Positions 1,185-59,597 of a stretch of DNA of 64,000 nt are shown here, piece by piece. The number at the start of each line of letters is the position of its first letter. The first letter of the stretch is position 1. The translations under genes and the position numbers were made by a program. The DNA is from an uncultured Clostridia bacterium. Its GTDB lineage: Bacteria > Bacillota > Clostridia > Christensenellales > Borkfalkiaceae. Below the pieces are notes generated by a model. That model had not been told where the DNA came from and ran no database searches. It was given only the letters and a program-made list of their open reading frames with translations. The DNA lies in the NCBI GenBank assembly GCA_944337235.1, contig CALVLK010000005.1, positions 36,984 through 100,983 on the forward strand, given 5' to 3'.

Positions 1185-3411
<2,227 letters not shown>

Positions 3412-11090: not shown

Positions 11091-13916
11091 TCATTGCTTT
11101 GCGGGCAGCATCCGTTTGAGGAACTGCCCCGTATAGCTCCTGTCGCAGGCGGCGACCTCTTCGGGCGTGCCCGTCGTGACGATCGTGCCGCCGCCGTCGC
11201 CCCCCTCCGGGCCGAGATCGATGATGTAATCGGCGATCTTGACGACGTCGAGGTTATGTTCGATGACGAGCACGGTATTTCCCCCCTCGCGCAGGCGCAG
11301 GAGGATATGCACAAGCTTTTCCACGTCGTAGCTGTGCAGCCCCGTTGTCGGCTCGTCGAGGATATAGAACGTCTTGCCCGTGGAGCGGCGCGAAAGCTCG
11401 GTGGCAAGTTTTACGCGCTGCGCCTCGCCGCCCGAGAGCGTCGTAGAGCTCTGCCCCAGCTTGATATAGCCCAGCCCCACTTCGTTGAGGGTGCGGATCT
11501 TGTTGTAGATGGAGGGCACGGGGCGGAAAAATTCGCATGCCTCCTCCACCGTCATTTCGAGCACGTCTGAGATGGTCTTGCCCTTATAGTGCACCTCGAG
11601 CGTCTCGCGGTTGTAGCGCTTTCCGCCGCACACCTCGCACGGGACATACACATCGGGCAGGAAGTGCATCTCGATCTTCATGATGCCGTCGCCCGCGCAG
11701 TTTTCGCAGCGGCCGCCTGCAACGTTAAAGGAGAACCGCCCCGCCTTGAAGCCGAGTGCCTTGGCGTCGGGGGTGGCGGCGAACAGCTCGCGGATGGCGG
11801 TGAACACCCCCGTATAGGTGGCGGGGTTGGAGCGCGGCGTTCTGCCGATGGGGGACTGATCGATCGCAATGACCTTGTCGAAGTACTCGATCCCCTCCGC
11901 CTTGCCGCACTTGCCCGCGGGCAGGCGGGCGCCGCCCAGAGCATTCGAGAGCAGCGGCAGGATGACCTCGTTGACGAGAGAGGACTTGCCCGAGCCGCTC
12001 ACGCCCGTCACCGCCGTGACGAGCCCCACGGGGATCTCCGCCGTAATGCCCTTGAGGTTGTTCTGCCTGCAATCGTACACGCGCAGCCACCTGCCGTCGG
12101 GCGCCTTGCGCGCCGCGGGCACTTCGATGCGCCGCCGCCCCGCCAGAAAATCGCCCGTGATGGAACGGGGCTCCGCCTCGAGATCGGCAACGCTGCCGCA
12201 GGCAACGATCTCCCCGCCGTGCACGCCCGCAAGCGGACCGACGTCCACAAGATAATCCGCCGCGCGCATGGTGTCCTCGTCGTGTTCGACGACGATGAGC
12301 GTATTGCCCAGATCGCGCAGATCTTTCAGCGACGCGAGCAGCTTTTCGTTGTCGCGCTGGTGCAGCCCGATGCTCGGCTCGTCGAGGATATACAATACGC
12401 CCGAGAGCGCGCTGCCGATCTGTGTGGCAAGGCGGATGCGCTGGCTCTCGCCGCCCGAGAGGGTGGCGGCGCTGCGCGAAAGGGTGAGATAATCCAGCCC
12501 CACGCCCACCAGGAAGTTGATGCGGTTTTTGATCTCCTTTAAGATGACGTCGGCAATGGCGTGCTGCGTGGGCGTGAGCGCGAGCTCGTCCATAAAGCGA
12601 TAGAGCGCGGAGACGGGCATATCGCACACTTCGGCGATGTTCTTCCCGCCCACGGTGACGGCGAGCGCCTCCTTTTTCAGCCGCTTGCCGCCGCAGTCGG
12701 GGCAGGGACTGGTGCGCATATAGCGCTCGATGTCCCACTTGACCCCGTCCGAAGACGTCTGCGTGTACCGCCGCTGCAGGCTGTTGACAAAGCCCTCCCA
12801 GCTCATTTTATAGCTGCCCGCAAAGGAATGCGTATGGTAGCGCATGTCGATCTTCTCGCCGCCGTTGCCGTACATGATGATGTCGTAGGCGCGCTTGGGC
12901 AGATCCTTGACGGGCACGTCGAGCGAAAAGCCGTAATGCTCGGCAAGCGCCGTGATGTACATCATGTTGGTGGAATTGCTGTCGAGCATCCACCCGCCCG
13001 CATGGACTGCGCCCTCGCGCAGCGTCTTGGTCTTGTCCGGGCAGAGCAGGTCGGGATCTACCGCCTGCTGATACCCCAGCCCCGAGCAGGTGGGGCATGC
13101 CCCCCATACCGTATTGAAGGAGAAGAGGCGCGGCTCGATCTCCTCGATGGAGATGCCGCAGTCGGGGCAGGCATAGCGCGAGGAATACAGCGTCTCCGCG
13201 CCGTCCTGCTCGATGACGACAAGCCCGTCCGCGAGTCTGAGCGCCCCCTCCAGGCTGCCCGTCAGGCGGGAGAGGATGCCCTCCTTGACGACAAGGCGGT
13301 CGATGACCACACTGATGTTGTGCTTGATGTTCTTTTCCAGGCGGATCTCCTCCTGCAGGTCGTAGAGGATGCCGTCGATCTTGACGCGGCCGTAGCCGCT
13401 CTTGCGCCATGCAGCAAGCTCCTTGGCATATTCGCCCTTTCTGCCGCGCACGACGGGCGCCTCCACCAGGATGCGGCTGCCCGCGGGCAGCTCCATGACG
13501 CGGTCGGCGATCTCGTCCACCGTCTGGCGGCGGATCTCCCTGCCGCATTTGGGGCAGTGGGGGACGCCGACGCGCGCAAAGAGCAGGCGCAGATAGTCGT
13601 AGATCTCCGTCACCGTGCCGACGGTGGAGCGGGGGTTGTGCGAAGTCGTCTTCTGATCGATGGAGATGGCGGGCGAAAGCCCGTCGATGGACTCGACGTC
13701 CGGTTTTTCCATCATGCCCAAAAATTGCCGCGCGTAGGACGAGAGGCTCTCCATATAGCGGCGCTGCCCCTCGGCAAAGATGGTATCGAAGGCGAGCGTG
13801 CTCTTGCCCGAGCCGCTTACGCCCGTAAAGACGGTGAGCGTACCGCGCGGAATGTGTACGTCCACATTTTTTAAGTTATTTTCCTTTGCTCCTTTGACAA
13901 AGATCTCCTCTTTCAT
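11091..13916 (-). CDS. uvrA: Excinuclease ABC subunit A
   Basis: A 941-residue damage-recognition ATPase of nucleotide excision repair. It has two ABC modules with Walker A GVSGSGKSTLAFD and GVSGSGKSSLVNE, and two LSGGE signatures. Zinc-binding cysteines are in CPKCGREI...CPDCG and in the second module CENCAGDG...CEVCGG. The start MKEEIFVKG is chosen over a longer frame because the ATG overlaps the previous stop codon (ATGA), indicating coupling. It is transcribed after uvrB and the HAD-GNAT gene under an SOS-type promoter. Confidence 0.97.
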   Translation of the reverse strand: MKEEIFVKGAKENNLKNVDVHIPRGTLTVFTGVSGSGKSTLAFDTIFAEGQRRYMESLSSYARQFLGMMEKPDVESIDGLSPAISIDQKTTSHNPRSTVGTVTEIYDYLRLLFARVGVPHCPKCGREIRRQTVDEIADRVMELPAGSRILVEAPVVRGRKGEYAKELAAWRKSGYGRVKIDGILYDLQEEIRLEKNIKHNISVVIDRLVVKEGILSRLTGSLEGALRLADGLVVIEQDGAETLYSSRYACPDCGISIEEIEPRLFSFNTVWGACPTCSGLGYQQAVDPDLLCPDKTKTLREGAVHAGGWMLDSNSTNMMYITALAEHYGFSLDVPVKDLPKRAYDIIMYGNGGEKIDMRYHTHSFAGSYKMSWEGFVNSLQRRYTQTSSDGVKWDIERYMRTSPCPDCGGKRLKKEALAVTVGGKNIAEVCDMPVSALYRFMDELALTPTQHAIADVILKEIKNRINFLVGVGLDYLTLSRSAATLSGGESQRIRLATQIGSALSGVLYILDEPSIGLHQRDNEKLLASLKDLRDLGNTLIVVEHDEDTMRAADYLVDVGPLAGVHGGEIVACGSVADLEAEPRSITGDFLAGRRRIEVPAARKAPDGRWLRVYDCRQNNLKGITAEIPVGLVTAVTGVSGSGKSSLVNEVILPLLSNALGGARLPAGKCGKAEGIEYFDKVIAIDQSPIGRTPRSNPATYTGVFTAIRELFAATPDAKALGFKAGRFSFNVAGGRCENCAGDGIMKIEMHFLPDVYVPCEVCGGKRYNRETLEVHYKGKTISDVLEMTVEEACEFFRPVPSIYNKIRTLNEVGLGYIKLGQSSTTLSGGEAQRVKLATELSRRSTGKTFYILDEPTTGLHSYDVEKLVHILLRLREGGNTVLVIEHNLDVVKIADYIIDLGPEGGDGGGTIVTTGTPEEVAACDRSYTGQFLKRMLPAKQ

Positions 13917-25266: not shown

Positions 25267-25379
25267 TTATTCCTCAGATTCCTTACTCCAGATGGTAATA
25301 TTTCCGTTGGCGTCGTAGTGCCAATAGTTGCCGAGGTAGGCGGTGCCGTCTTCGTTGAGCGCAGGCTCGCCTTCGCAAT
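25267..25379. repeat. Direct repeat, copy 2 (3' end of LRR gene)
   Basis: Partner of 23533-23645. The high DNA identity, much above the rest of the two genes, suggests recent duplication or gene conversion. Confidence 0.85.
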
Positions 25380-27135
25380 AGTAATATACCGTGGCGGTGC
25401 AGAGCACATAGTGGGCCATTTTGCCCGGGCGAAGATTGAGGGCTTCCCACTGTGCTTCCGTGCCGCCGTAATATACTGTAATTGCACTCGGCCCATAGCT
25501 GAAGGGCGTAGTGCCAATTTCCGTAACAGAAGCGGGAATATATACACTACGGATCGCGGTTTTATAAAATGCGTTATTCCCAATTTCTACAAGCGTATCG
25601 GGCAAATCGATCTCGTTCAGTGCGGAACAAAGGATAAAAGCACAAACACCGATCTCCGTCAGCCCTTCAGGAAAAATAACACTCTCCAAAGCCGAGCAAT
25701 TCGAAAAGGTTTGTGCGGGTACAACTTTCATGTCAGCGGGCAGCCGTACCCTGCGCAGGGCAGTACAGCCCGAGAATACATTGCGCCCCATCTCGATTCC
25801 ATCGTCTATATACACCTCTGTAAGCCGATATTTTGCAGCCTGCTCGTTATCATATACAGCGAAGGCGTAATCGACAATATATTCAATGGGCGCAGCAATG
25901 TGCAATTTATAGTTTTCAGGCGCTACCCCCTTGTACCCATATAATATTTTGTTGTTTATTACGATCAGCCCGTCATCCAGATCATTATACCAGGCGGTTC
26001 GGCTAAACACCCCACCGCCCAACTTTTCCAAACCGGACGAAAAGGTGATATCCTTCAGCAATCTGCATGCATCAAAAGCGGCTTCGCCAATTTGCGTAAC
26101 GCTGTCCGGAATGATGATCTCTGTAAACTGGTTGCCAATGACAAGGCATGTGTCTGCGTCATAGCAATAACATTGCGAATTAAATGCGCGGTATTCTATG
26201 CGCTCAAGGCCTTCGGGCAACGCGATCTCCTCCAGTGCGCATCTTAAAAAACATTGCGACGGGATCGATTTTAGGCCCTGCGGCAGCGTGACGCGGCGCA
26301 GATGCGTACAATCTGCAAATGCTCCCTCGCCAATAACGGTAACGCTGTCCGGAATGACGACTTCTTCTATGCGCACCATGGCAGAGAACGCGCGCTCGCC
26401 GATGCGCTCTAACTGCGCGGGCAGTTCAATGCCCGTGGTGATCGTATTACAGAGATATTCCGTACATGCATTGGGGAAATTTGCTACTCCGTCCTGAATT
26501 TCGGTATTGTAAAATGCAAAGTCGGCGATCTCCTTTACGGGCAACCCCCTGAAAGTGTCGGGCAGGTCGACAAAGCCCTCCATATTGCCCATCTCCTCTG
26601 CTACCCCACCCGAAAGGGAGTAACCGGAACCATCTTCGAGCAAGGTATAGTGAAATCCCCGCTCATCATACGAAAGAGCAATTGTCTCTGCGGGATCTTT
26701 TGCAGGCTCTTCCTCGGCGTCGACGCGACTCGGCATGATCCAAACAAAGGAATATTCCGTCCATTCAGAGTCTGTATAGGCGACACCATCGCCGCGCGCA
26801 AGCAGTTCAAGGGAGTAAAGTCCCGTTTCCGCCAGAAGAGAAAGATCAAAAGAGTTGGATTCAACATCATAACTGTCGTATTCAAAAAATAAAAGATATC
26901 CGCTCGCATGCTCCACCTCGTCCCAGACGAGGGCGCCATCTTCTTTGCGAAGGTTTTTCGGCGTTTCAAGTTGGATCAGCCCCTGCGCCTCGTTCGTGAT
27001 CGGTTTGCTTTCCGCCTCCGGCGGAACAGCCTCTTCGCATGCCGCCGTCATACAGGAACCTGCGACCAGCATTGCCGCAAGCAGAAGGGTGACCAAGCGC
27101 GGCATATTTATTTTTTTTGATCTATAACGCAACAT
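25267..27135 (-). CDS. BspA-type leucine-rich-repeat lipoprotein (tandem paralogue)
   Basis: 622 residues with the same layout as the 23533 gene. Signal peptide with cysteine at CMTAAC (Cys33), an Fn3-like domain (LRKEDGALVWDEVEHASGY), about ten LRR_5 repeats (IPDSVTQIGEAAFDACRLLK) and the shared cap (YYGGTEAQW, then YWHYDANGNITIW). An in-frame ATG at codon 11 is an alternative start. GGGAGGAGC lies 6 bases before the first ATG. The pair lies 30 bases apart and is probably co-transcribed. Confidence 0.85.
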   Translation of the reverse strand: MLRYRSKKINMPRLVTLLLAAMLVAGSCMTAACEEAVPPEAESKPITNEAQGLIQLETPKNLRKEDGALVWDEVEHASGYLLFFEYDSYDVESNSFDLSLLAETGLYSLELLARGDGVAYTDSEWTEYSFVWIMPSRVDAEEEPAKDPAETIALSYDERGFHYTLLEDGSGYSLSGGVAEEMGNMEGFVDLPDTFRGLPVKEIADFAFYNTEIQDGVANFPNACTEYLCNTITTGIELPAQLERIGERAFSAMVRIEEVVIPDSVTVIGEGAFADCTHLRRVTLPQGLKSIPSQCFLRCALEEIALPEGLERIEYRAFNSQCYCYDADTCLVIGNQFTEIIIPDSVTQIGEAAFDACRLLKDITFSSGLEKLGGGVFSRTAWYNDLDDGLIVINNKILYGYKGVAPENYKLHIAAPIEYIVDYAFAVYDNEQAAKYRLTEVYIDDGIEMGRNVFSGCTALRRVRLPADMKVVPAQTFSNCSALESVIFPEGLTEIGVCAFILCSALNEIDLPDTLVEIGNNAFYKTAIRSVYIPASVTEIGTTPFSYGPSAITVYYGGTEAQWEALNLRPGKMAHYVLCTATVYYYCEGEPALNEDGTAYLGNYWHYDANGNITIWSKESEE

Positions 27136-32895: not shown

Positions 32896-34098
32896 TTATA
32901 CCCATTGCCAGGACCAGGCCGTGGGAACCCCGTCTACATAGTGCCAGAAATTACCGATCTCCGTCGGCTGTGTTTCGCTGTAAAAAAAGACCTTAGAATC
33001 AATATCATCCTCGACGCAGGAGACACTGTTCCATTGTGCACTATTTCCGCAATAAAAGATCTTTTCCAATGCGTCGCAGCCAGAAAAAGCGCTCATTCCG
33101 ATCTCTTGCAGGGATGCGGGCATGACAATGGACTCCATAGCGGTGCAATTTTCGAAAGCTTGCGCATAGACATACTGTATCCCCTCCGGCAATGCAATGC
33201 TGCGCAAATTCCGGCAACCATAGAACGCCGCTCCGGCAATTGCTATTACAGATCGTCCAAGATGAGTCGGGGCCACTGTCATTTGCGACGCAGTTCGATC
33301 CAGCGGGCTAAAGACAGAACAATTTCCATCCCGCCGAATATAATAGAGCATAAGCTCATTGGTGACGTCTGCCGATTCTGTGCCAATCGTGCCCGCCTTA
33401 ATAATGCTGCCATCTCGATACAACAACAAAAGCTCGTTTTGCAGGTTGATAGCAAACCCCTGAATGGTATTCTGCCCCACCTGTGTCTGAAGTCCGTCGA
33501 TCTGTCCAAAGGAAAGCGTTGTCCCTGTTGTATCGGAGATAAACAGCTCACCATCTCCAACCAAAACATGAAGAATGGTGCGCAATTCTGCCTCCGCTTC
33601 TATGGGAAGATCCACACGTACTTCACCGACATCCGCAGAGATTCCATCTGCCTTTGCCTTAAGCCTTCCGATCCCATTGATATATAGATCGGTAAAAGTT
33701 GTATTATCTAAATTGCTTAAAAACTGCGCCAAAGTATATGCATGACCCAGCGCGACCGATCGTTCATAAATTTCATCGATCGAATAGAACAGCGCGACAT
33801 CGATCGTTTCGGTATCGGGTTCCTCATCCGGCGTTTCGATTTCAGAATCACCGTTCTGCGAAATCCCACACCGCAGACAGACGCCGTTTTGCCAGTTATG
33901 CCCCAAGGGCTCCGTCTCTATATAGTTCTTTTGACCGCATTCTGCGCATGTCTGCTCGATGACGCCTCGTCCCTCACATGACGGCTCCACAATCGTGTAA
34001 TTGAGAAAATCATGAACGTGTTGCGGCTCTGTTGTACAGCCGCATAGGGCTATGAGCGCAGCAATTCCGCATGACAGTATCCCGAGAAGCTTTTTCAT
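32896..34098 (-). CDS. Lipoprotein with zinc-ribbon-like module and LRR_5 repeats
   Basis: 400 residues. Lipobox ALCGC (Cys21). A His/Cys module at about 26-76 (HVHDF, C-E-G-R-G, CAECGQ, PLGHNW, CLRCG) is shared with the 34520 protein. A middle region of unknown fold follows. Two or three BspA repeats (LGRSVIAIAGAAFYGCRNLR, MPASLQEIGMSAFSGCDALE) lead to a C-terminal cap (IFYCGNSAQWNSV, NFWHYVDG) related to that of the tandem LRR proteins. It is divergent from the XRE gene. Ribosome site GGAGG. Confidence 0.8.
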   Translation of the reverse strand: MKKLLGILSCGIAALIALCGCTTEPQHVHDFLNYTIVEPSCEGRGVIEQTCAECGQKNYIETEPLGHNWQNGVCLRCGISQNGDSEIETPDEEPDTETIDVALFYSIDEIYERSVALGHAYTLAQFLSNLDNTTFTDLYINGIGRLKAKADGISADVGEVRVDLPIEAEAELRTILHVLVGDGELFISDTTGTTLSFGQIDGLQTQVGQNTIQGFAINLQNELLLLYRDGSIIKAGTIGTESADVTNELMLYYIRRDGNCSVFSPLDRTASQMTVAPTHLGRSVIAIAGAAFYGCRNLRSIALPEGIQYVYAQAFENCTAMESIVMPASLQEIGMSAFSGCDALEKIFYCGNSAQWNSVSCVEDDIDSKVFFYSETQPTEIGNFWHYVDGVPTAWSWQWV

Positions 34099-34113
34099 AT
34101 GATCCTCCATAAT

Positions 34114-34129
34114 TAGCCCCAAGGGGCTA
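34114..34129. promoter_or_regulatory. Leader palindrome TAGCCCC-AA-GGGGCTA
   Basis: A 7-bp perfect dyad between the -10 and the GGAGG of the 32896 gene. It is placed like the hairpin at 28314-28336. Candidate operator for the divergent XRE regulator, or an mRNA hairpin. Confidence 0.5.
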
Positions 34130-34138
34130 TTTTTCTGC

Positions 34139-34167
34139 ATTATACTCCTATGGTGCTAAAATGTCGA
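34139..34167 (-). promoter_or_regulatory. Promoter of the 32896 lipoprotein gene
   Basis: TCGACA, 17 bases, TATAAT on the minus strand. Confidence 0.75.
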
Positions 34168-34519: not shown

Positions 34520-35731
34520 TTAAGCGATCCTGATTTCCGAAACAGAAATGACGTTCATGGTGACGTCTTCCATAGAGAGTGCCGTCTCGTAGACGCCGTC
34601 CGGCACCTTGATGTAACGCTGTATGGGCGTGCCGCCGCCGATCGCCGTGGAGATGAGGATATAGCCCAGCCAATGATACTCCCACGTGATCGTGAAACTG
34701 ACGGGCGACGCATCGCTGCCCCAATCCGAACCCGTGCTCGTGCCCGAATAGTAAACTTCCCAATCGGTCGCGGCATTCAAAAACTCTTCTGTGGATGCAA
34801 AATTGTATTCGACCGCATCGCTACCCCACGGATGAAGCGACCAGCCGCAGTTATTCCATGCTGTGTCTGCACCCATGACCCAGGTATCCTGACGGGCAAG
34901 GAAGAGATTTTCGTCTTGCCTGATCCCAAGAAACGGCGTATCCCATGTATCGGTGCCCGTCGTATAGGCGGTGCCGCTGATGGAGATGAACTGTCCCTTT
35001 TCGATGCTGCCGTACGTCATATAGTTGCTGCCGTCGGATGCCATACAAGCCCGCGCATCCGCGCTGATCACAGGTGTCGTCCCCCAGGCCGTGACAGAGA
35101 TGCTGTCCTCAAGCGCCCACGTTCCGCGCTGCACGCCGTCAATGGAACAGGTGCAGACGCCGTCAACGGGATCCCCCCAGGCGTGATCGAGCGTAACGTA
35201 ATATGATGTACTGCACTGCACGCCGTATGCGCTGCCCTGCACAGTGATCGGGTACGCCCCGCGTGCCGCGTCATAATTCCCCGCGGCGATCGCTGCGAAT
35301 GCTGCGTCCATCGACTCGGCGTCGACTGAGATCTCCTCTGCCGTCAATGCGCGCGTTTCTCCTGCGGCGCCGTCCGTTTCAAAATGTCCGATGACGCGGA
35401 AAGAGTCGCCCGTCGTGAACGCTGCGTCCGCCTCTGTAAACTCTGTCTTTTGCCCCTCGACCGTGATAGAGCGCAACGTCATCATGCCGCCGCTTTCCGT
35501 TCGCCCGCAGCGCATGCAGACGCCGTCTTCCCAGTCATGCCCCAGGGGCGGAACTTCCTCGGTGACAATTTCACCGCATTCCGAACAGACACGCTCAACA
35601 GTTCCCCCTTCCTCACACGTCGGCTCTTCGATATAGCTGTCGGAAAAACTGTGAACATGCCCCCCGTTACAGCCGCAAAGCGCCATGGTAAGCGCGAGAC
35701 AGCAGGACAACAATGCTAATCTTTTTTTCAT
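34520..35731 (-). CDS. Lipoprotein with zinc-ribbon-like module, unknown C-terminal region
   Basis: 403 residues. Lipobox ALCGC (Cys21). The same His/Cys module as the 32896 protein (HVHSF, C-E-E-G-G, CSECGE, PLGHDW, CMRCG) occupies about 24-75. The rest is different: an Ig-like segment (MMTLRSITVEGQKTEF) and a Trp/Gly-rich beta-type region (GQFISISGTAYTTGTDTW, TFTITWEYHWLGYILIS) that could be a carbohydrate-binding fold. Function unknown. Ribosome site GGGAGG. Confidence 0.72.
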   Translation of the reverse strand: MKKRLALLSCCLALTMALCGCNGGHVHSFSDSYIEEPTCEEGGTVERVCSECGEIVTEEVPPLGHDWEDGVCMRCGRTESGGMMTLRSITVEGQKTEFTEADAAFTTGDSFRVIGHFETDGAAGETRALTAEEISVDAESMDAAFAAIAAGNYDAARGAYPITVQGSAYGVQCSTSYYVTLDHAWGDPVDGVCTCSIDGVQRGTWALEDSISVTAWGTTPVISADARACMASDGSNYMTYGSIEKGQFISISGTAYTTGTDTWDTPFLGIRQDENLFLARQDTWVMGADTAWNNCGWSLHPWGSDAVEYNFASTEEFLNAATDWEVYYSGTSTGSDWGSDASPVSFTITWEYHWLGYILISTAIGGGTPIQRYIKVPDGVYETALSMEDVTMNVISVSEIRIA

Positions 35732-47711: not shown

Positions 47712-48602
47712 TCACTCCTCGCGGCCGATGATGTCGAGGATCTCCGAAAGGCGATCGAGATCGTCGCGCGAATAGTAATCGATATAGATGCGGCCCTTCT
47801 TGTCCGTGCCGATGAGCGAGACCTTGGTGTGGAACGTCTCGCGCATACGTTCGACGAGGTGCGAAAGCTCGGCGCTCATCTGCGTCGTCTTCTGCTCCTT
47901 TTCGCGGGAGAGGACCTCGGGCGGGTTGAGCCACTGCTTCACCGCACGCTCCGTCTCGCGCACCGACCAGCCCTCTTTGACACACTTCTCCGCAAGCGCG
48001 CCCTGCGCCTCTTGCGGAACGGGCACAAACGCGCGCGCATGGCCGGAGGTGAGCTTGCCCTCCCGCACGAGCGAGATGACCTCCTCCGAAAGCGTGAGCA
48101 GGCGCAGCGTATTGGCGATCGCCGGGCGCGATTTGCCCAGGCGCTCGGCAAGCACCTCCTGCGTGAGGTGAAATTCCTCCATCAGCTTCTTCATGCCGTA
48201 CGCGGCTTCAATGGGGTTGAGATCCTCGCGCTGCAGATTTTCGATGAGCGAGACCTCCTGGATCTCGCGCTCGTCATATTCCTTGACGACGGCGGGAATG
48301 GTCGTAAGCCCCGCCTCTTTGGCGGCGCGGTAACGGCGCTCGCCCGCGATGATCATAAAGCTCCCGTCGGGATTGCGGTTGACGACGATGGGAGAGATGA
48401 CGCCGTGCTCGCGGATGGACTGCGTCAGATCGCGCAGCGCGCCCTCCTCGAACACCTTGCGCGGCTGATCGGGATTGGGAAAGATGTCGTCGAGCGGAAG
48501 TTCGCTCACGCCGTGTACGGCGGAGCCGTCCTGCGCGTTCTCGTACGCCTCTTCCGTGTCGCTGAACAGGGCGGAAAGCCCTCTGCCTAAACCTTTCGCC
48601 AT
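47712..48602 (-). CDS. parB: Chromosome partitioning protein ParB (Spo0J)
   Basis: 296 residues. An N-terminal ParA-stimulating tail (KGLGRGLSALF), a CTP-binding ParB core (IIAGERRYRAAKEAG, LIENLQREDLNPIE), a DNA-binding HTH (LTQEVLAERLGKSRPAIANT) and a C-terminal dimer domain. It binds parS, loads SMC and works with ParA. Two parS sites lie at 51561 and 51604, 3 kb away. It follows parA by 3 bases. Confidence 0.97.
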   Translation of the reverse strand: MAKGLGRGLSALFSDTEEAYENAQDGSAVHGVSELPLDDIFPNPDQPRKVFEEGALRDLTQSIREHGVISPIVVNRNPDGSFMIIAGERRYRAAKEAGLTTIPAVVKEYDEREIQEVSLIENLQREDLNPIEAAYGMKKLMEEFHLTQEVLAERLGKSRPAIANTLRLLTLSEEVISLVREGKLTSGHARAFVPVPQEAQGALAEKCVKEGWSVRETERAVKQWLNPPEVLSREKEQKTTQMSAELSHLVERMRETFHTKVSLIGTDKKGRIYIDYYSRDDLDRLSEILDIIGREE

Positions 48603-48605
48603 ATT

Positions 48606-49382
<777 letters not shown>

Positions 49383-51560: not shown

Positions 51561-51576
51561 TGTTTCATGTGAAACA
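51561..51576. promoter_or_regulatory. parS site (one deviation)
   Basis: TGTTTCATGTGAAACA; one base from the palindromic parS consensus TGTTTCACGTGAAACA. Confidence 0.85.
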
Positions 51577-51603
51577 CACAGAGGATTTTCCCGCAAAAAA
51601 CGG

Positions 51604-51619
51604 TGTTCCACGTGAAACA
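51604..51619. promoter_or_regulatory. parS site (exact consensus)
   Basis: TGTTCCACGTGAAACA, identical to the well-known B. subtilis parS 16-mer. It is 27 bases from the first site. Confidence 0.95.
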
Positions 51620-53647: not shown

Positions 53648-54547
53648 TTATTCGTCCTTCTGTTCCTGGGTGGTCTCACCGTCGGCATTTTCGTCGCGCG
53701 AGTTCCCGAGATAGGTGCCGAAGAAGCCGGAAAAGCTTCCCTTCTTATAGCCGCTCTGCGTTCTTCCGAGCGTCGTTCCCGAGCTCTGCGGCGTACTCTC
53801 CTTGGGCAGTTCGCGCTTGGGGTAGATCTTTCTGCCGTCGCGGTCATAGCCATTGTTGTCCGTTCTTCTTTCGCGGTAGCGATCCTTTCCGCCCCGTCCG
53901 CCGCGGTTCCTGTCGAACGTACGCATATTCTTTGGAATGATGACGACGAATCTTGCCGGCTCTTTTCCCTCGCTCTTGGTGGTGACGTTTTCATCGTCAA
54001 CGAGTGCGGCATGGATGATGCGGCGCTCGTACGGGTTCATCGGTTCAAGGCGTACGCGCTTTCCAAGCCGGACTGCCTTTGCCGCCATCTTTGCGGCGAC
54101 GCGTCTGAGCGTCTCCTCCCGCTCTTCACGGTAATTCCCGCAATCGACGACCACACGCTTGTAGTCCGTTCTGCCCGTATTGGCAACGGCGCCGGCGAGG
54201 ATCTGAACGGCGTCGATAAATTCGCCGCGGCGCCCGATCACGCTCTTTGCCGAGGCGGTCGTCAGCTCAATGACGATGCGCTCGCCCTCTTCGGTGAGCG
54301 TCACGACGACATCCTGCCCGACGCGTTCGAACAATCCCTCGAGAAAGCGCACGGCGCGCTCCCCGTCTGTCAGCCGCTCCACGCGCTTGATCGATACCTG
54401 TGCGGGCGCGGCGCCGATCCCGAACAGTCCGCCCTTCTTCCCTTCGTCAAGCACAACGATCTCGGCGTCCTCGCGGTTGAGCCCCATTTCGGCAAGGCCC
54501 GCAGCGATCGCCTCCTCTGCTGTTTTTCCTGTAAAAACTTTTTCCAT
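53648..54547 (-). CDS. jag: Jag / KhpB RNA-binding protein
   Basis: 299 residues. Jag_N domain (1-50, FTGKTAEEAIAAGLAEMG), KH domain (about 75-145, SAKSVIGRRGEFIDAVQ), R3H domain (about 148-212, MNPYERRIIHAAL). A long basic, Gly/Arg/Tyr-rich tail with GFFGTYLGNS near the end is longer than in most Jag proteins. It binds RNA and partners the YidC/SpoIIIJ insertase, encoded just upstream. Confidence 0.95.
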   Translation of the reverse strand: MEKVFTGKTAEEAIAAGLAEMGLNREDAEIVVLDEGKKGGLFGIGAAPAQVSIKRVERLTDGERAVRFLEGLFERVGQDVVVTLTEEGERIVIELTTASAKSVIGRRGEFIDAVQILAGAVANTGRTDYKRVVVDCGNYREEREETLRRVAAKMAAKAVRLGKRVRLEPMNPYERRIIHAALVDDENVTTKSEGKEPARFVVIIPKNMRTFDRNRGGRGGKDRYRERRTDNNGYDRDGRKIYPKRELPKESTPQSSGTTLGRTQSGYKKGSFSGFFGTYLGNSRDENADGETTQEQKDE

Positions 54548-54568: not shown

Positions 54569-56008
54569 TTACTTTCCGCCCTTTTTGTTTTTATTTTTCT
54601 TTTCTTCTTTATTTTTCTCCATCCAGTCGTAGGTGCGCGTGTACTTGGCGCGGATCGCCTCCTCCTCGCGTTTGTTGAAGATCCTGCCCAAAACAAGATT
54701 CGAGATGAGCGTAACAAGAATGGATATGATGCTACTCACGGCAATATAGATGGAGAATGCCGCCGTCCACATGAAGCCCGTAATGGCATAGATGAGCGGC
54801 ATGATGATGAGCATCATCTTCTGCATCCTGTTGCCCTGTCCGTCGACGGTGGAATACTGGTTGCTCTCCTTCGAGCTCTTCATCGCAATGAACTGCGAAA
54901 GCACCATAAGTCCGATCGTGAGCACGATCATGATATAGTAGCCGTTCGGCGTCTCCTTCTCCTCCTGCAGGTGCGCCGTGAGAAGGTCATACTCGCTCTG
55001 CGAGAACACCTCTGTAATGCTGCGCTCCTCTTCTCCCCAGGCGTCCATGCGGATACCGTCGGAGAAGGACTGCGTAAATGCGGAATATTCCTGAATCGGG
55101 TGGGCATAGGAGACGTCCGGATACCACACGTTTTTGATCCAGAGGAAGCTGGGGCTGTTCTCCGAACGGAAGTGATTTGCAGCGGCCTCCGCCCCCAACT
55201 CCTCGAAATAGCTGCGGCAGGCGTCTCCGACCGATTCGCCCGCAGCGACATATTCGTCGAGCGCTGCCTTCAGCGCCGCATCCTGCTGATTATAATACAT
55301 CTTATCGACGTCGATGCGGTATTCCCGCGTCACCGTCGTGTCGTCGAGCGAATAGCTGTAATAGATATAGGCGTCTTCGCGCGCCGAGCGCACCTCCATG
55401 CGCGTGGCGCTTCCGCTGACCGTCACGGTATAGGTGATATCGCCGATGACATGGGGCTCGGAATAGTCCCAGTCGATGACGGGCCGCCCGTCGTCTGCAG
55501 CGCCTTCGCGGTCGAGGCGGTACTCCTGGCCGTTCACCGAGCCGTCGACGGTATATTTCATGACGGCGGCATTGTAGGCGTGCGCCATCCCCTCGTACAT
55601 TTCGAGGTTGGCATACTGCGAATAGCTCTGAAACGCCGCAACGGCGACAAAAAGTATAACGATCGAGATGATCATGGGAAGGCAGGCGCCCAACATGCCG
55701 GCACCGTTCTTCTTCTGGATCTCCATCATCTTCTGGTTGTACATCTTGCTGTCGTTGCGGTACTGCTGCTGCAGGCGCTCCATCTCTTCCTTGCGTTCGC
55801 GCATCATCAGCGTCTGCTTGCGCATCTTAAAGCGCTGATAGACGTCGAACGGGGTCGTGATCGCCTTGAGAATGAGCGTAAAGACAATGACGCCGACACC
55901 AACGATGCCGACTCCCTCTACGATGACTTTGACAAATTGTCCCAGCCAGTTGAGGTCGATATAGAACCCCTCCTGCAGGAATTGAAAAATGACCGATGTC
56001 GCGTTCAT
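54569..56008 (-). CDS. yidC: Membrane protein insertase YidC/SpoIIIJ with large extracellular insertion
   Basis: 479 residues against about 250-280 for usual Firmicute YidC. TM1 (VGVGVIVFTLILKAI), the cytoplasmic coiled-coil hairpin (MRERKEEMERLQQQYRNDSK) and TM2 (MIISIVILFVAVAAF) are normal. About 220 residues then follow before TM3 (IMIVLTIGLMVLSQF), in the loop that faces outside. The TM1 arginine needed in SpoIIIJ seems to be Lys here (LKAITTP). ATG at 56008 has no clear ribosome site; a TTG lies two codons upstream. Confidence 0.92.
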   Translation of the reverse strand: MNATSVIFQFLQEGFYIDLNWLGQFVKVIVEGVGIVGVGVIVFTLILKAITTPFDVYQRFKMRKQTLMMRERKEEMERLQQQYRNDSKMYNQKMMEIQKKNGAGMLGACLPMIISIVILFVAVAAFQSYSQYANLEMYEGMAHAYNAAVMKYTVDGSVNGQEYRLDREGAADDGRPVIDWDYSEPHVIGDITYTVTVSGSATRMEVRSAREDAYIYYSYSLDDTTVTREYRIDVDKMYYNQQDAALKAALDEYVAAGESVGDACRSYFEELGAEAAANHFRSENSPSFLWIKNVWYPDVSYAHPIQEYSAFTQSFSDGIRMDAWGEEERSITEVFSQSEYDLLTAHLQEEKETPNGYYIMIVLTIGLMVLSQFIAMKSSKESNQYSTVDGQGNRMQKMMLIIMPLIYAITGFMWTAAFSIYIAVSSIISILVTLISNLVLGRIFNKREEEAIRAKYTRTYDWMEKNKEEKKNKNKKGGK

Positions 56009-56029
56009 AGGCAAATTTGTTTGGCGCGG

Positions 56030-56321: not shown

Positions 56322-56645
56322 TCAATTTGCAAGCAGGTGTTCCCGCTTTGCAATTTTTTCGATGTCCCGTACAAAGGCATGATAGGAATACTCCTCTGCC
56401 TGTCTTGGAATGAGAAGGTAACAGCCTGTAACAAGCATCTGCGCGCGCGCAGAAAATGCCGCCCGCAGCAGTCGCTTGATGCGGTTGCGCTGAACGCTCT
56501 TGCCGTATTTTTTTCCCACACACACCGCCATGCGGATGTGATCGGCGGGGATATATACAAAGGTGAGCACACTTCCGTGCGCCCGCTTGCCCTGTTTGAA
56601 GACGGCAGAGATCTCCTTTCTCTTTTTTAGGCGCTTATAGATCAT
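56322..56645 (-). CDS. rnpA: Ribonuclease P protein component
   Basis: 107 residues. FKQGKRAHGSVLTFVYIP and the RNR motif in KKYGKSVQRNRIKRLLR are diagnostic. It binds RNase P RNA for tRNA 5' maturation. The ATG starts 8 bases after the rpmH stop, so reinitiation is likely. Confidence 0.95.
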   Translation of the reverse strand: MIYKRLKKRKEISAVFKQGKRAHGSVLTFVYIPADHIRMAVCVGKKYGKSVQRNRIKRLLRAAFSARAQMLVTGCYLLIPRQAEEYSYHAFVRDIEKIAKREHLLAN

Positions 56646-56652
56646 CCCTCGC

Positions 56653-56787
56653 TCATGCAGAGAGATGCTTTCTGCCCTTGTTTCTCCTTCTCTTCAGAAC
56701 CTTTCTGCCGCCCGCGCTCTGCATTCTCTTGCGGAAGCCGTGCACCTTGCTTCTCTGTCTCTTCTTGGGTTGATAAGTTCTCTTCAT
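56653..56787 (-). CDS. rpmH: 50S ribosomal protein L34 (bL34)
   Basis: 44 residues read directly from the sequence: [18 protein letters not shown], then [19 protein letters not shown] and the end GRKHLSA. Length and sequence are canonical. GGAGAATT ribosome site. First gene of the rpmH-rnpA-yidD-yidC-jag operon. Confidence 0.98.
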
Positions 56788-56853: not shown

Positions 56854-57948
56854 TTACGCGTTTCTGACGGGTAAAATCAAATACAGGCTGTCTTTCTCGC
56901 GCTCATTTTGTACAATAAAGGGGGAATACGGGCCGTTCAGGTCTATTTCTACGCGCTCCTCCTCGAGCGCGCCCAGTGCGTCGAGCAGATATTTTGCGTT
57001 CATCGATATGGTGAGGTCGCGCCCCGTATGTTCCACGGTAAAACTTTCCGATACGTTGCCTGCCTCCGACACAGAGGAGACGTTCATTCCGTCGCCCGTC
57101 AGCGTGATCGTGATGAGGTTGTTCTTGTCTCCACGGATGAGGATGGCGGCCCGCTGCACGCTCTTGATCAGTTCCTCGCGCGAAAGGATCACCCTGGTTT
57201 CAAACGTCTTTGAAATGACGCTCTCCTTGCGGATGAAGTCGCCCTGATACAGGCGGGAGAGAATGGTCTTCCCCTCCGTCTCCGCGCGCATCATGCCCCC
57301 TTCCGTATAGATGGTGAGCTTCTCTTCGTCGTCACTCAAAGAGCGGGCGATCTCGTTGAGCGTGCGCGCCGGACAGATGATGTTCATCTCGCCCGTCTTT
57401 GAAACGATCTCTTCGCTCGCAAGCGCCAGGCGGTAGCCGTCAAGCGCCGTCATCTCCAGCTTGTCCTTCCATTCGAGCAGGCAGCCCTTCAGAATGGGGC
57501 GGGAATCGTCCTGCGCACAGCAGAACACCGTTTTGGCGACGCCGCGCTTGAATGCCTTCTTGTCGATGACAAAGCTGTTTTCCGAGATATCGAGGTTGAT
57601 CTTGGGGAATGCCTCCGCACTCATCGTCTGAATGCGTGTGCCCGAATCGGCGTATCTGATCTCCATGCCGCCCTCCACCGTCTCAAGCGTGAGCTCGCAG
57701 TCGGTCAGTTTGCCGATAAAGTCTGCAAACAGTTTCCCGGGAACGCAGATCTCGCCCTCCTCGAACACTTCGGCACTGATCTGATTGCGGATGGTCAGCT
57801 CGCCGTCCGTCGCAAGCAGCGTCACGACGTCGTTGCCCGCCGAAAGTTTGATGCACTCCATGACGGGCATCGTAGTCCGCACCGCGCATGCCTTGCTCGC
57901 CTTTACGACCGCATCCGAAAGTGTAAGTCCGTCGCAGATGAATTTCAT
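56854..57948 (-). CDS. dnaN: DNA polymerase III beta subunit (sliding clamp)
   Basis: 364 residues in three clamp domains. FICDGLTLSDAVVKASKACA opens domain 1, EMTALDGYRLALA lies in domain 2, and the C-terminal DSLYLILPVRNA carries the usual last strand. It usually follows dnaA; here dnaN is the first gene left of the candidate origin and dnaA is missing. AAGGGGG ribosome site. Confidence 0.97.
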   Translation of the reverse strand: MKFICDGLTLSDAVVKASKACAVRTTMPVMECIKLSAGNDVVTLLATDGELTIRNQISAEVFEEGEICVPGKLFADFIGKLTDCELTLETVEGGMEIRYADSGTRIQTMSAEAFPKINLDISENSFVIDKKAFKRGVAKTVFCCAQDDSRPILKGCLLEWKDKLEMTALDGYRLALASEEIVSKTGEMNIICPARTLNEIARSLSDDEEKLTIYTEGGMMRAETEGKTILSRLYQGDFIRKESVISKTFETRVILSREELIKSVQRAAILIRGDKNNLITITLTGDGMNVSSVSEAGNVSESFTVEHTGRDLTISMNAKYLLDALGALEEERVEIDLNGPYSPFIVQNEREKDSLYLILPVRNA

Positions 57949-57997
57949 AATGTACAGCCCCCTTCTTGTTATGATGGTAATATAAAATAAGAATATT

Positions 57998-58036
57998 TAA
58001 TAATAGTAATAATAGGCGGTGTAGAAATGTGGAATT
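57998..58036 (-). other. DnaA-trios, GC cluster and DnaA-box-like sites (unwinding element)
   Basis: Read on the minus strand: AATTCCACA and ATTTCTACA, then CCGCC, then CTATTATTACTATTATTA. The complement of the last part is six perfect 3'-(G/A)AT trios. The order box-box-GC-trio is that described for the B. subtilis basal unwinding system. Confidence 0.7.
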
Positions 58037-58053
58037 TTCCGCTTGTCCCCTAT

Positions 58054-58082
58054 ATTATACCCCATAAGAGGGAAAAAAGCAA
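58054..58082 (-). promoter_or_regulatory. Candidate promoter of dnaN
   Basis: TTGCTT, 17 bases, TATAAT. Transcripts would cross the DnaA-trio element. Confidence 0.7.
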
Positions 58083-58296
58083 ACAATTTCCGGCTTTTTC
58101 GGGCAGGAACCTCGCAAAAGCAAGGTGGAGAGGGGGCGGGAATTCGCGTGGAAATCTTTTTACAGGGGGTGGAAAGAGGAAAGCATTCCACGGGGCGGAA
58201 GGGGGATATTTTCAATGACAAAGTCAACAGGAAAAGATATGCGCATTTATTCCAAAATCTTCGGATTAAACAGGAAAATTCTACAGAGAAACTGAC

Positions 58297-58320
58297 ATTG
58301 TGGAAAACCTCTTCCACAAT
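58297..58320. repeat. Inverted pair of DnaA-box-like motifs
   Basis: ATTGTGGAA-AACCTC-TTCCACAAT, 9-bp perfect arms. The minus-strand 9-mer TTTTCCACA fits TTWTNCACA. Confidence 0.65.
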
Positions 58321-58369
58321 TTTACAGCCGCATTTGGAAAAGCAATCTGTAAAATTTCGTGCGGGAGCA

Positions 58370-58398
58370 TTGAAATCAGGGGAAGGATATGATATAAT
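58370..58398 (+). promoter_or_regulatory. Promoter of rsmG
   Basis: TTGAAA, 17 bases, TATAAT. The -10 ends 6 bases before the rsmG ATG, so the message would be leaderless. Confidence 0.8.
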
Positions 58399-58404
58399 GT
58401 TCCC

Positions 58405-59094
58405 ATGAAGCAGATCGATCTGAAAGAGAGTATGGAAAAATTGCAGGCAAACGCGCAGGCCTTTGCCCGCTTTCGTGCGCTTCTTCTGGAATATAACGCA
58501 AAGTTCAACCTTACCGCGATCACGGGCGAAGAGGAAGTGACGTATAAACACTTTTTGGACAGCGTCGCCGGCGAAGGGTGGTTCAAAGAGGGGGCAAAGG
58601 TGTGCGAGATCGGCTCGGGCGCGGGGTTCCCCTCCATTCCGCTTAAGATCGTGCGCCCCGATCTCTCGTTTACGCTCATCGAGAGCAGGGAGAAGAAGTG
58701 CAGCTTTCTGCGCATTGCGGCGGAAGAGCTTGCGCTCTCCGATATCACAGTGCTCTGCACGCGCGCCGAAGAGGGAGCGCGCCGCGCCGATCTGCGCGAA
58801 AAGTTCGACGTCGTGTGCGCCCGCGCCGTTGCGGAGATGAACACGCTTGCAGAATATTGCCTGCCCTTTGTGCGCGTGGGCGGGTATATGATCGCCTATA
58901 AGGGCAAGGCGGAGGGGGAGCTGCAGCGGGCAAAGCGCGCCATTGCGCTGCTTGGCGGCGAAACGGAGGAGGCGGTATCCTATTCCCTTCCCAAAGGATA
59001 CGGCGAACGTATGCTCATTGCCGTAAAAAAGGTGAAGAGAACGCCCGAAAAATATCCGCGCGGGCAGGGAAAAGAGCGAGGTGATCCGCTTTGA
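58405..59094 (+). CDS. rsmG: 16S rRNA (guanine527-N7)-methyltransferase
   Basis: 229 residues. An N-terminal helical part is followed by a Rossmann SAM domain: CEIGSGAGFPSIPLKIV (motif I), TLIESREKKCSFL and VVCARAVAEMNTLAEYCLP. Modifies G527 of 16S rRNA. No ribosome site; the start ATG is at the expected transcription start. First rightward gene after oriC. Its stop overlaps the next start. Confidence 0.96.
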   Translation: MKQIDLKESMEKLQANAQAFARFRALLLEYNAKFNLTAITGEEEVTYKHFLDSVAGEGWFKEGAKVCEIGSGAGFPSIPLKIVRPDLSFTLIESREKKCSFLRIAAEELALSDITVLCTRAEEGARRADLREKFDVVCARAVAEMNTLAEYCLPFVRVGGYMIAYKGKAEGELQRAKRAIALLGGETEEAVSYSLPKGYGERMLIAVKKVKRTPEKYPRGQGKERGDPL

Positions 59095-59597
59095 CCGGGG
59101 AGAGAGGACCGACCGCCTGCGCGCTGACGGGGCACAGGGACCTTCCCGCCGCATTCGATCGCGAGGCGCTCAGATATGAGCTGCAGCAGCTCATCCGTGC
59201 GGGGGTGAATACCTTCTTCTGCGGCATGGCGCGCGGGTTCGATTACGAGGCGCTCGTCTCGCTCGTCTCGCTGAAGGAGCGCTATCCTATCCGCATTGTC
59301 GCCTGCCCCGCATACCGCGGCATGGTCTGGCGGCATCCGCTTAGCATCCGCGATCGCTATCTTGCGCTGCAGGCCGCCTGCGACGAGGAGGATGTGCGCT
59401 TTGAGGCGTACACCTATGGCTGTTACCATGCGCGGGATAGGCTGATCGTCGACCGTGCAGATATGCTGTTTGCCTACTGCCTGCGCAATACGGGCGGCAC
59501 GGCGTACACCGTGCGCTATGCGATGGAGCAGAACAAAGTGCTCAAATTCTTCGGCGCCCTGTCCGACGTGCCCGAGGAGTTTCGTTTGAATTGTTAA
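59091..59597 (+). CDS. SLOG-fold protein, YpsA/DUF1273-like
   Basis: 168 residues. ALTGHRDLP at the N-terminus and FFCGMARGFDYEA form the nucleotide-binding loops typical of the SLOG/DprA-like group. RLIVDRADMLFAY and GGTAYTVRYAM follow. Members bind nucleotide derivatives; the role is unknown. The start codon is TTG, with AGGTGAT upstream and a 4-base overlap with the rsmG stop, so it is translationally coupled. Confidence 0.8.
   Translation: MTGERGPTACALTGHRDLPAAFDREALRYELQQLIRAGVNTFFCGMARGFDYEALVSLVSLKERYPIRIVACPAYRGMVWRHPLSIRDRYLALQAACDEEDVRFEAYTYGCYHARDRLIVDRADMLFAYCLRNTGGTAYTVRYAMEQNKVLKFFGALSDVPEEFRLNC

Follow-up and report, generated by a model that had tools for sequence, protein, structure and literature searches.

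A Probable Chromosomal Origin Linked to dnaN and Remote from dnaA in a Family of Clostridia

RESULTS

Genes and sequence elements around the dnaN-rsmG gap

The window, a stretch of 64,000 nucleotides from an uncultured Clostridia bacterium, forms the end of contig C5 (bases 36984 to 100983) in a draft genome of 1,405,006 bases that is distributed over 27 contigs and is 89% complete. Within it, a 456-base intergenic region separates dnaN from rsmG, the two genes pointing outward from the gap, as an earlier note on this DNA had described (Table 1). The same note placed rpmH, rnpA, yidC, jag, and parAB with parS nearby, and all of these are present. The first four, of which rpmH, rnpA, and yidC carry names that we presume from their sequences, lie on the dnaN side, as do parA, parB, and two parS-like sites, against 0.20 matches expected when up to three mismatches are allowed to what we take to be the parS consensus. 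The claim that gyrBA is also close did not hold: gyrB lies at 1185-3188, about 55 kb from the putative origin, and gyrA was not found among the subset of window open reading frames tested. Two genes located 24 to 33 kb from the putative origin (25267-27135 and 32896-34140) contain BspA-type leucine-rich repeats. An Rfam scan of the window gave no matches.

The 66 bases between dnaN and rpmH had been read as the slot that dnaA vacated. The spacing is real, but it is not the former place of dnaA, since dnaN and rpmH are transcribed in tandem. In the usual layout, rpmH and dnaA are divergent; here, dnaN and the putative origin upstream of it come ahead of rpmH, with rsmG on the other side of that origin.

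TABLE 1 Features at the dnaN-rsmG locus and second origin-like cassettes in congeners (window positions unless a contig or locus is given)
Feature	Position	Strand	Basis
parB	47712..48602	-	domain search
parA	48606..49382	-	domain search
Two parS-like sites (51561, 51604), 6.4 kb from the putative origin	51561..51619	.	1 mismatch each
jag (Jag_N, KH, R3H)	53648..54547	-	domain search
yidC	54569..56014	-	presumed name
rnpA	56322..56645	-	presumed name
rpmH, 66 bases downstream of and in tandem with dnaN	56653..56787	-	presumed name
dnaN (DNA polymerase III beta clamp)	56854..57948	-	TIGR00663, Pfam
Probable oriC, dnaN-rsmG intergenic region	57949..58404	.	skew minimum, unique box plus four-trio pattern, kept neighborhood
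AT-rich stretch beside the trios on the dnaN side, probable unwinding element	57970..57997	.	sequence; putative function
Six perfect DnaA-trios TAATAATAGTAATAATAG (5'-TAR on the + strand)	57998..58015	+	sequence
GC cluster GCGG	58016..58019	.	sequence
Weak DnaA box TGTAGAAAT, trio-proximal member of a tandem pair	58020..58028	-	sequence; tandem pairs in relatives
DnaA box TGTGGAATT, 12 bases from the trios	58028..58036	-	sequence
Three degenerate box-like sites: CGTGGAAAT (58147), GGTGGAAAG (58168), TTCCACG (58186)	58147..58192	.	weak; putative function
Inverted pair of DnaA boxes: TGTGGAAAA (58299-58307), TCTTCCACA (58310-58318)	58299..58318	.	sequence
rsmG/gidB, first gene of the other replication arm	58405..59094	+	domain search
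YpsA-like SLOG protein gene, adjoining rsmG in most relatives	59091..59597	+	Pfam, locus comparison
Second cassette, G217:C26	L163:2530-2980		boxes plus trio module
Second cassette, G338 (L187)	C76:13608-14067		91% identical to G217 copy
Second cassette, G354 (L188)	C15:18133-18542		74-76% identical to G217 copy

The gap contains the ordered elements that had been reported for it, with box-like 9-mers, a GC cluster, and six perfect trios readable directly at 57998-58036 and a further box, at 58299, in an inverted pair. The boxes on the trio side are present but degenerate: TGTGGAATT differs from the E. coli consensus TTATCCACA at three of nine positions, although its hexamer, TGTGGA, is intact, and it shares one overlapping base with TGTAGAAAT. 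Tandem pairs resembling TGTGGAAAT/TGTGGAYAA occupy the trio-proximal box position in several relatives, and better copies of the box, TGTGGACAA or TGTGGATAA, are found at the same spot in several. Only one 9-mer in the window's own gap, that at 58299, comes within one mismatch of the E. coli consensus, and the 456 bases hold 3 TGTGGA cores, compared to 25 in the entire 64 kb.

The order and polarity of these elements are those of the basal unwinding system described in PMC8287927, which consists of boxes, a spacer, and trios, with spacer lengths peaking at 10 to 13. The window shares with it the box pair, a spacer of 12 to the TGTGGA box, and six correctly oriented trios, the module calling for a minimum of three no farther than 16 bases from a DnaA box. 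Except where a species motif is supplied, that system's default rule allows at most two box mismatches (PMC8287927); the window's box, with three mismatches from the E. coli motif, would be acceptable only with a lineage-specific motif.

Sequence evidence for a probable origin in the gap

Cumulative GC skew over the whole 100,983-base contig C5 reaches its minimum at C5:94948 (window position 57965), 17 bases outside dnaN and within the distance of about 1 kb from 58 kb that the earlier note had set, with only about 5.6 kb of the contig available on the rsmG side. Six trios beside a box-like hexamer arose in 0 of 3,000 dinucleotide shuffles of the gap, and a scan of the 64-kb window for three or more trios no farther than 16 bases from a TGTGGA-like hexamer (at most one mismatch) identified one place, 57998. 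The more demanding pattern CCACAN{2,16}YTAYTAYTAYTA, which requires a box and four perfect trios, occurs at one place in the 1.4-Mb draft genome, the gap itself, and its reversed control occurs nowhere. Because the draft is 89% complete, a second site is possible in the missing sequence. Judged by these sequence features, positions 57949-58404 very probably constitute the site at which copying of the chromosome starts.

The remote dnaA locus

One copy of dnaA was found in the draft genome, at C3:104700-106046, which agrees with the expectation that it would reside at a distant locus. It is divergent from recF across 143 bases and is followed by mnmG (both neighbors being named presumptively), and the encoded protein is intact, with its N-terminal, ATPase, and helix-turn-helix (DNA-binding) domains. 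The recF-dnaA gap of this genome contains 0 DnaA boxes, and the three-trio scan detected no module in the 20 kb around dnaA, such that the second trio-bearing region next to dnaA that would have told against the earlier note was not found. The skew of the 119-kb contig C3 does not turn at dnaA; it is not smooth, dipping near 45 kb, rising to 65 kb, and then falling again, with none of these changes at dnaA. The arrangement is that of a dnaN-linked origin with a remote dnaA, oriC lying beside dnaN and dnaA being separate. It is not the bipartite layout of Firmicutes, in which dnaA sits between two box clusters next to dnaN, since dnaA is on another contig and its upstream gap is devoid of boxes.

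Conservation in the family

The family was sampled with 121 genomes from 18 genera. A Bac_DnaA match is present in all 121 (only a weak, DnaA-like match in G018 and G087 and two full matches in G023) and dnaN is present in 117, and among the 116 genomes in which both genes were placed, there is not one in which they are adjacent. They occupy different contigs in 100 of these genomes and the same contig, at distances of 5.2 to 288 kb, in 16. Contig breaks fail to explain this separation because the gene facing dnaN from the other side of the gap is rsmG, not dnaA, in each of 40 family loci sampled, all of which keep the order rsmG<-gap->dnaN-rpmH-rnpA-yidC-jag; the YpsA-like gene sits between in three of them (L034 to L036), and the gap of one (L041) extends to 1.3 kb. 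The divergent recF-dnaA pair followed by mnmG recurs in 20 of 20 further family loci and in six genomes of genus g7, where the pair is 5 to 11 kb away, beyond jag and beside mnmG. Given that 0 of 116 genomes have the genes adjacent, their separation is an old trait of the family. The proposal that the initiator gene is gone while its target site and dnaN stayed is right about the remote dnaA and the trio module at dnaN, but the trait is family-wide, and this genome did not acquire it through a recent relocation.

Skew in two congeners with both genes on one contig points to the same place. In G027, the minimum over the whole of contig C7 is at 178357, 91 bases from the dnaN start (178448), with dnaA 143 kb away at 35029; in G075, the minimum over the first 200 of the 295 kb of contig C1 is at 12546, 12 bases from the dnaN start (12534), with dnaA 163 kb away at 175502. 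Neither genome has a skew turn at dnaA.

The box-and-trio pattern matched in 25 of 41 genomes of the genus, the window's genome included (6 for the reversed control), and every one of the 25 has a match between dnaN and rsmG, a placement made from coordinates in 5 and by gene search in 20. The exact four-trio pattern is absent from the other 16. DnaA boxes number 110 in 41 dnaN-rsmG gaps (5.8 expected) and 2 in 27 recF-dnaA gaps (1.0 expected). Of the 40 family loci, a strict trio scan gave 24 with the module in the 1.2 kb upstream of dnaN, 23 of them in the same polarity, against 1 match elsewhere in 434 kb. It detected no module upstream of dnaN in 16 loci, whose gaps have 11 to 33% G+C and whose boxes may have drifted. 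Upstream of dnaA, the strict scan found a module in 0 of 28 loci (20 from the family and 8 from the order), with 1 match elsewhere in 251 kb.

Outside g7, dnaA is aimed toward the dnaN-linked gap in each of the 10 sampled family genomes that carry both genes on one contig (G003, G013, G014, G027, G030, G031, G044, G046, G075, and G095). If that gap is the origin, dnaA is head-on to replication in these 10 genomes and codirectional with it in the six g7 genomes.

Order, class, and a possible origin of the layout

Among genomes of the class outside the order, dnaA is directly upstream of dnaN in 75 of the 79 with both genes placed (6 of 85 were unplaced, and 2 of the 75, G278 and G320, were assigned on gene fragments). 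The two genes are on different contigs in four Clostridia from outside the order, G266, G300, and G326 of family f48 and G309 of family f75; with three of the four coming from one family, another separation event is possible. In the order outside the family, the genes are adjacent in 50 of 88 genomes and nonadjacent in 38, of which 14 have them on the same contig and 24 only on different contigs, where contig breaks could be part of the explanation; 8 more genomes were left unassigned. On a DnaN tree of 50 rows, which were chosen to include many displaced cases and in which genes on different contigs count as displaced, the adjacency label requires seven changes, at least five of them forced by well-supported branches, with no direction of change implied.

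The layout of G147, of family f28, offers a possible starting point: recF is divergent from dnaA, which is followed by dnaN-rpmH-rnpA-yidC-jag. From a layout of this kind, removal of the recF-dnaA pair from upstream of dnaN and arrival of rsmG at the origin would yield the arrangement of the family.

The strict scan, which is too insensitive to decide many families of the order, recovered the module upstream of dnaN in 8 of 21 order loci scored as having a displaced dnaA (the polarity being the usual one in 7), against 3 matches elsewhere in 270 kb, and in 4 of the 11 whose dnaA is adjacent, against 1 match elsewhere in 144 kb. In G128, the skew minimum over 100 kb is 219 bases from the dnaN start, and dnaA is 38 kb away; in G154, a local minimum in the first 120 kb of a 3.97-Mb contig is 1.4 kb from the dnaN start, and dnaA is 47 kb away. 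The minima of G165 (3.2 kb from the dnaN start) and G145 (0.8 kb) come from contigs of 34 kb and 16 kb, which are too short for use. In family f32, the skew of G211 (L102; C2:200001-320000) is still falling past dnaN over 120 kb, the scan gives no trio module upstream of dnaN in that locus, and the sole trio match in the family (G193) has the wrong polarity; there, dnaN itself does not seem to lie at the origin. Given the insensitivity of the scan and this counterexample, we do not claim that the module stayed with dnaN in every case. Over evolution, the unwinding site tends to stay coupled to dnaN as one unit, and the piece that moved would be dnaA (together with recF in the family), with at least one exception in the order.

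Two to four boxes lie within 300 bases upstream of dnaA in 4 of 16 displaced order loci (G175, G165, G128, and G132). Of 10 order relatives that have the genes adjacent and the upstream sequence complete, 8 show no boxes in the 400 bases upstream of dnaA (an 11th, L090, has only 44 upstream bases and was left out). The idea that the move cost dnaA its autoregulation was considered and dropped, these eight relatives already lacking upstream boxes.

A second origin-like cassette in three congeners

In G217, which encodes one full DnaA, two origin-like regions share an orientation and are separated by 9.2 kb; each contains five or six boxes and a trio module. A search of 103 genomes of the genus with the second copy as query, which scored few candidates per genome and may miss diverged copies, returned some similarity in 17 and most of the length in three, G217, G338, and G354. 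The first copy in G338, recognized by similarity, would be on the same contig about 8 kb away; in G354, only the second copy was located. The second cassette, which comprises five or six DnaA boxes and a trio module, is flanked in all three congeners by a small-protein gene and a gene for a 339-residue protein that matches no Pfam family. The same gene pair occurs without an intervening box or trio module in G247 and G350, where about 170 and 300 bases, respectively, separate the two genes. At the G247 junction, which was inspected by eye, both flanks are present and the cassette is missing, and this sequence would fit a clean gain or loss. Misassembly is unlikely because the cassette appears in three separate assemblies.

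DISCUSSION

We hold with high confidence that the dnaN-rsmG gap is a chromosomal origin that works without an adjacent initiator gene, DnaA being supplied from the distant recF-dnaA-mnmG locus. In such a system, DnaA would diffuse to the gap and bind the tandem boxes at 58020-58036, aided by the remaining boxes, among them the inverted pair at 58299. It would be guided over the GC cluster onto the trio strand, the AT-rich stretch would be opened toward dnaN, and two forks would depart in opposite directions, with ParB at the parS sites presumably handling segregation.

The strongest competitor, which we still regard as improbable, is that the gap is merely the unwinding half of a bipartite origin whose second box cluster lies elsewhere, on the pattern of B. 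subtilis and C. difficile, which have one half on either side of dnaA. Opening in vitro of the C. difficile origin is reported to have required both halves (PMC7561715), and the second box-and-trio cassette in three congeners, about 8 to 9 kb from the first in two of them, could be seen in this light. The window's genome, however, has no second place for the trio pattern and no box in its recF-dnaA gap, and box-free regions upstream of dnaA in 8 of the 10 adjacent-gene relatives from the order suggest that a single-part origin may be ancestral. That the gap is a mere DnaA-regulated promoter region between dnaN and rsmG, with the true origin at dnaA, is very unlikely: promoters also carry DnaA boxes, and dnaA marks the origin in most Clostridia, but in this genome and in G027 and G075 the skew shows no turn at dnaA, trio modules are missing from the 20-kb stretches of these three that bear dnaA (L002, L064, and L081) as well as from upstream of dnaA in 28 other loci, and box numbers in the recF-dnaA gaps of the family are near chance. 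Fragmented or chimeric metagenome assembly has a negligible chance of accounting for the separation, for although these are draft genomes and the 100 with genes on different contigs are ambiguous alone, the 16 with both genes on one contig never have them adjacent and both neighborhoods recur throughout the sampled loci.

An origin beside dnaN with dnaA elsewhere is already known from cyanobacteria. The oriC of Synechococcus elongatus PCC 7942 is described as lying near dnaN at the skew shift, cyanobacterial genomes encoding dnaA and dnaN separately (PMC7198777); dnaN is listed beside the predicted oriC in 55 of 68 cyanobacterial species (PMC4674748), and the S. elongatus unwinding module is reported to be functional in vitro (PMC8287927). 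Our case shares with these the position of oriC beside dnaN and the separate dnaA but belongs to another phylum, has rpmH-rnpA-yidC-jag and rsmG as neighbors along with a recurring recF-dnaA-mnmG locus, and comes from a class in which dnaA next to dnaN is the norm. The likeness appears to be one of layout, and we make no claim of common descent.

The layout described for Clostridia is rnpA-rpmH-dnaA-dnaN with a bipartite origin, and DnaA-dependent opening in C. difficile is placed in the dnaA-dnaN gap (PMC7561715). Like oriC2 of Clostridioides difficile and Bacillus subtilis, the dnaN-rsmG gap has boxes and trios upstream of dnaN; unlike oriC2, it has no adjacent dnaA or oriC1 half, and dnaN is followed in tandem by rpmH, without the rpmH-dnaA divergence. 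The putative double origins catalogued in PMC4403523 include cases beside duplicated dnaA clusters, parB, or hemE, and they resemble the three congeners in that a second origin-like region is present, on one contig with the first in two; the extra copy in the congeners differs in being an isolated cassette flanked by two genes that are not known to act in replication. The open-access literature searched held no report on this lineage, its matches being general or on other lineages (Nostoc and phytoplasmas). New here are the lineage, the unwinding site often staying with dnaN when dnaA leaves, and the second complete origin-like cassette in three congeners.

As a tentative generalization, the unwinding site in this order may tend to pass on with dnaN, leaving dnaA free to depart several times, and the origin may be a self-contained, copyable cassette, of which a second complete version exists without a replication gene in three congeners; two start sites or a DnaA sink could result. 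Ori-Finder 2022 is described as taking dnaA as its default principal indicator gene, adjusted by the lineage that the user enters (PMC10225481), and such a default would be misleading for this family and for parts of the order around it. The position, promoter, and orientation of the initiator gene are uncoupled from the origin in this lineage, which makes it a natural test of the need for a nearby initiator gene. Should the second cassette prove active, it would bear on whether one bacterial chromosome can use two origins.
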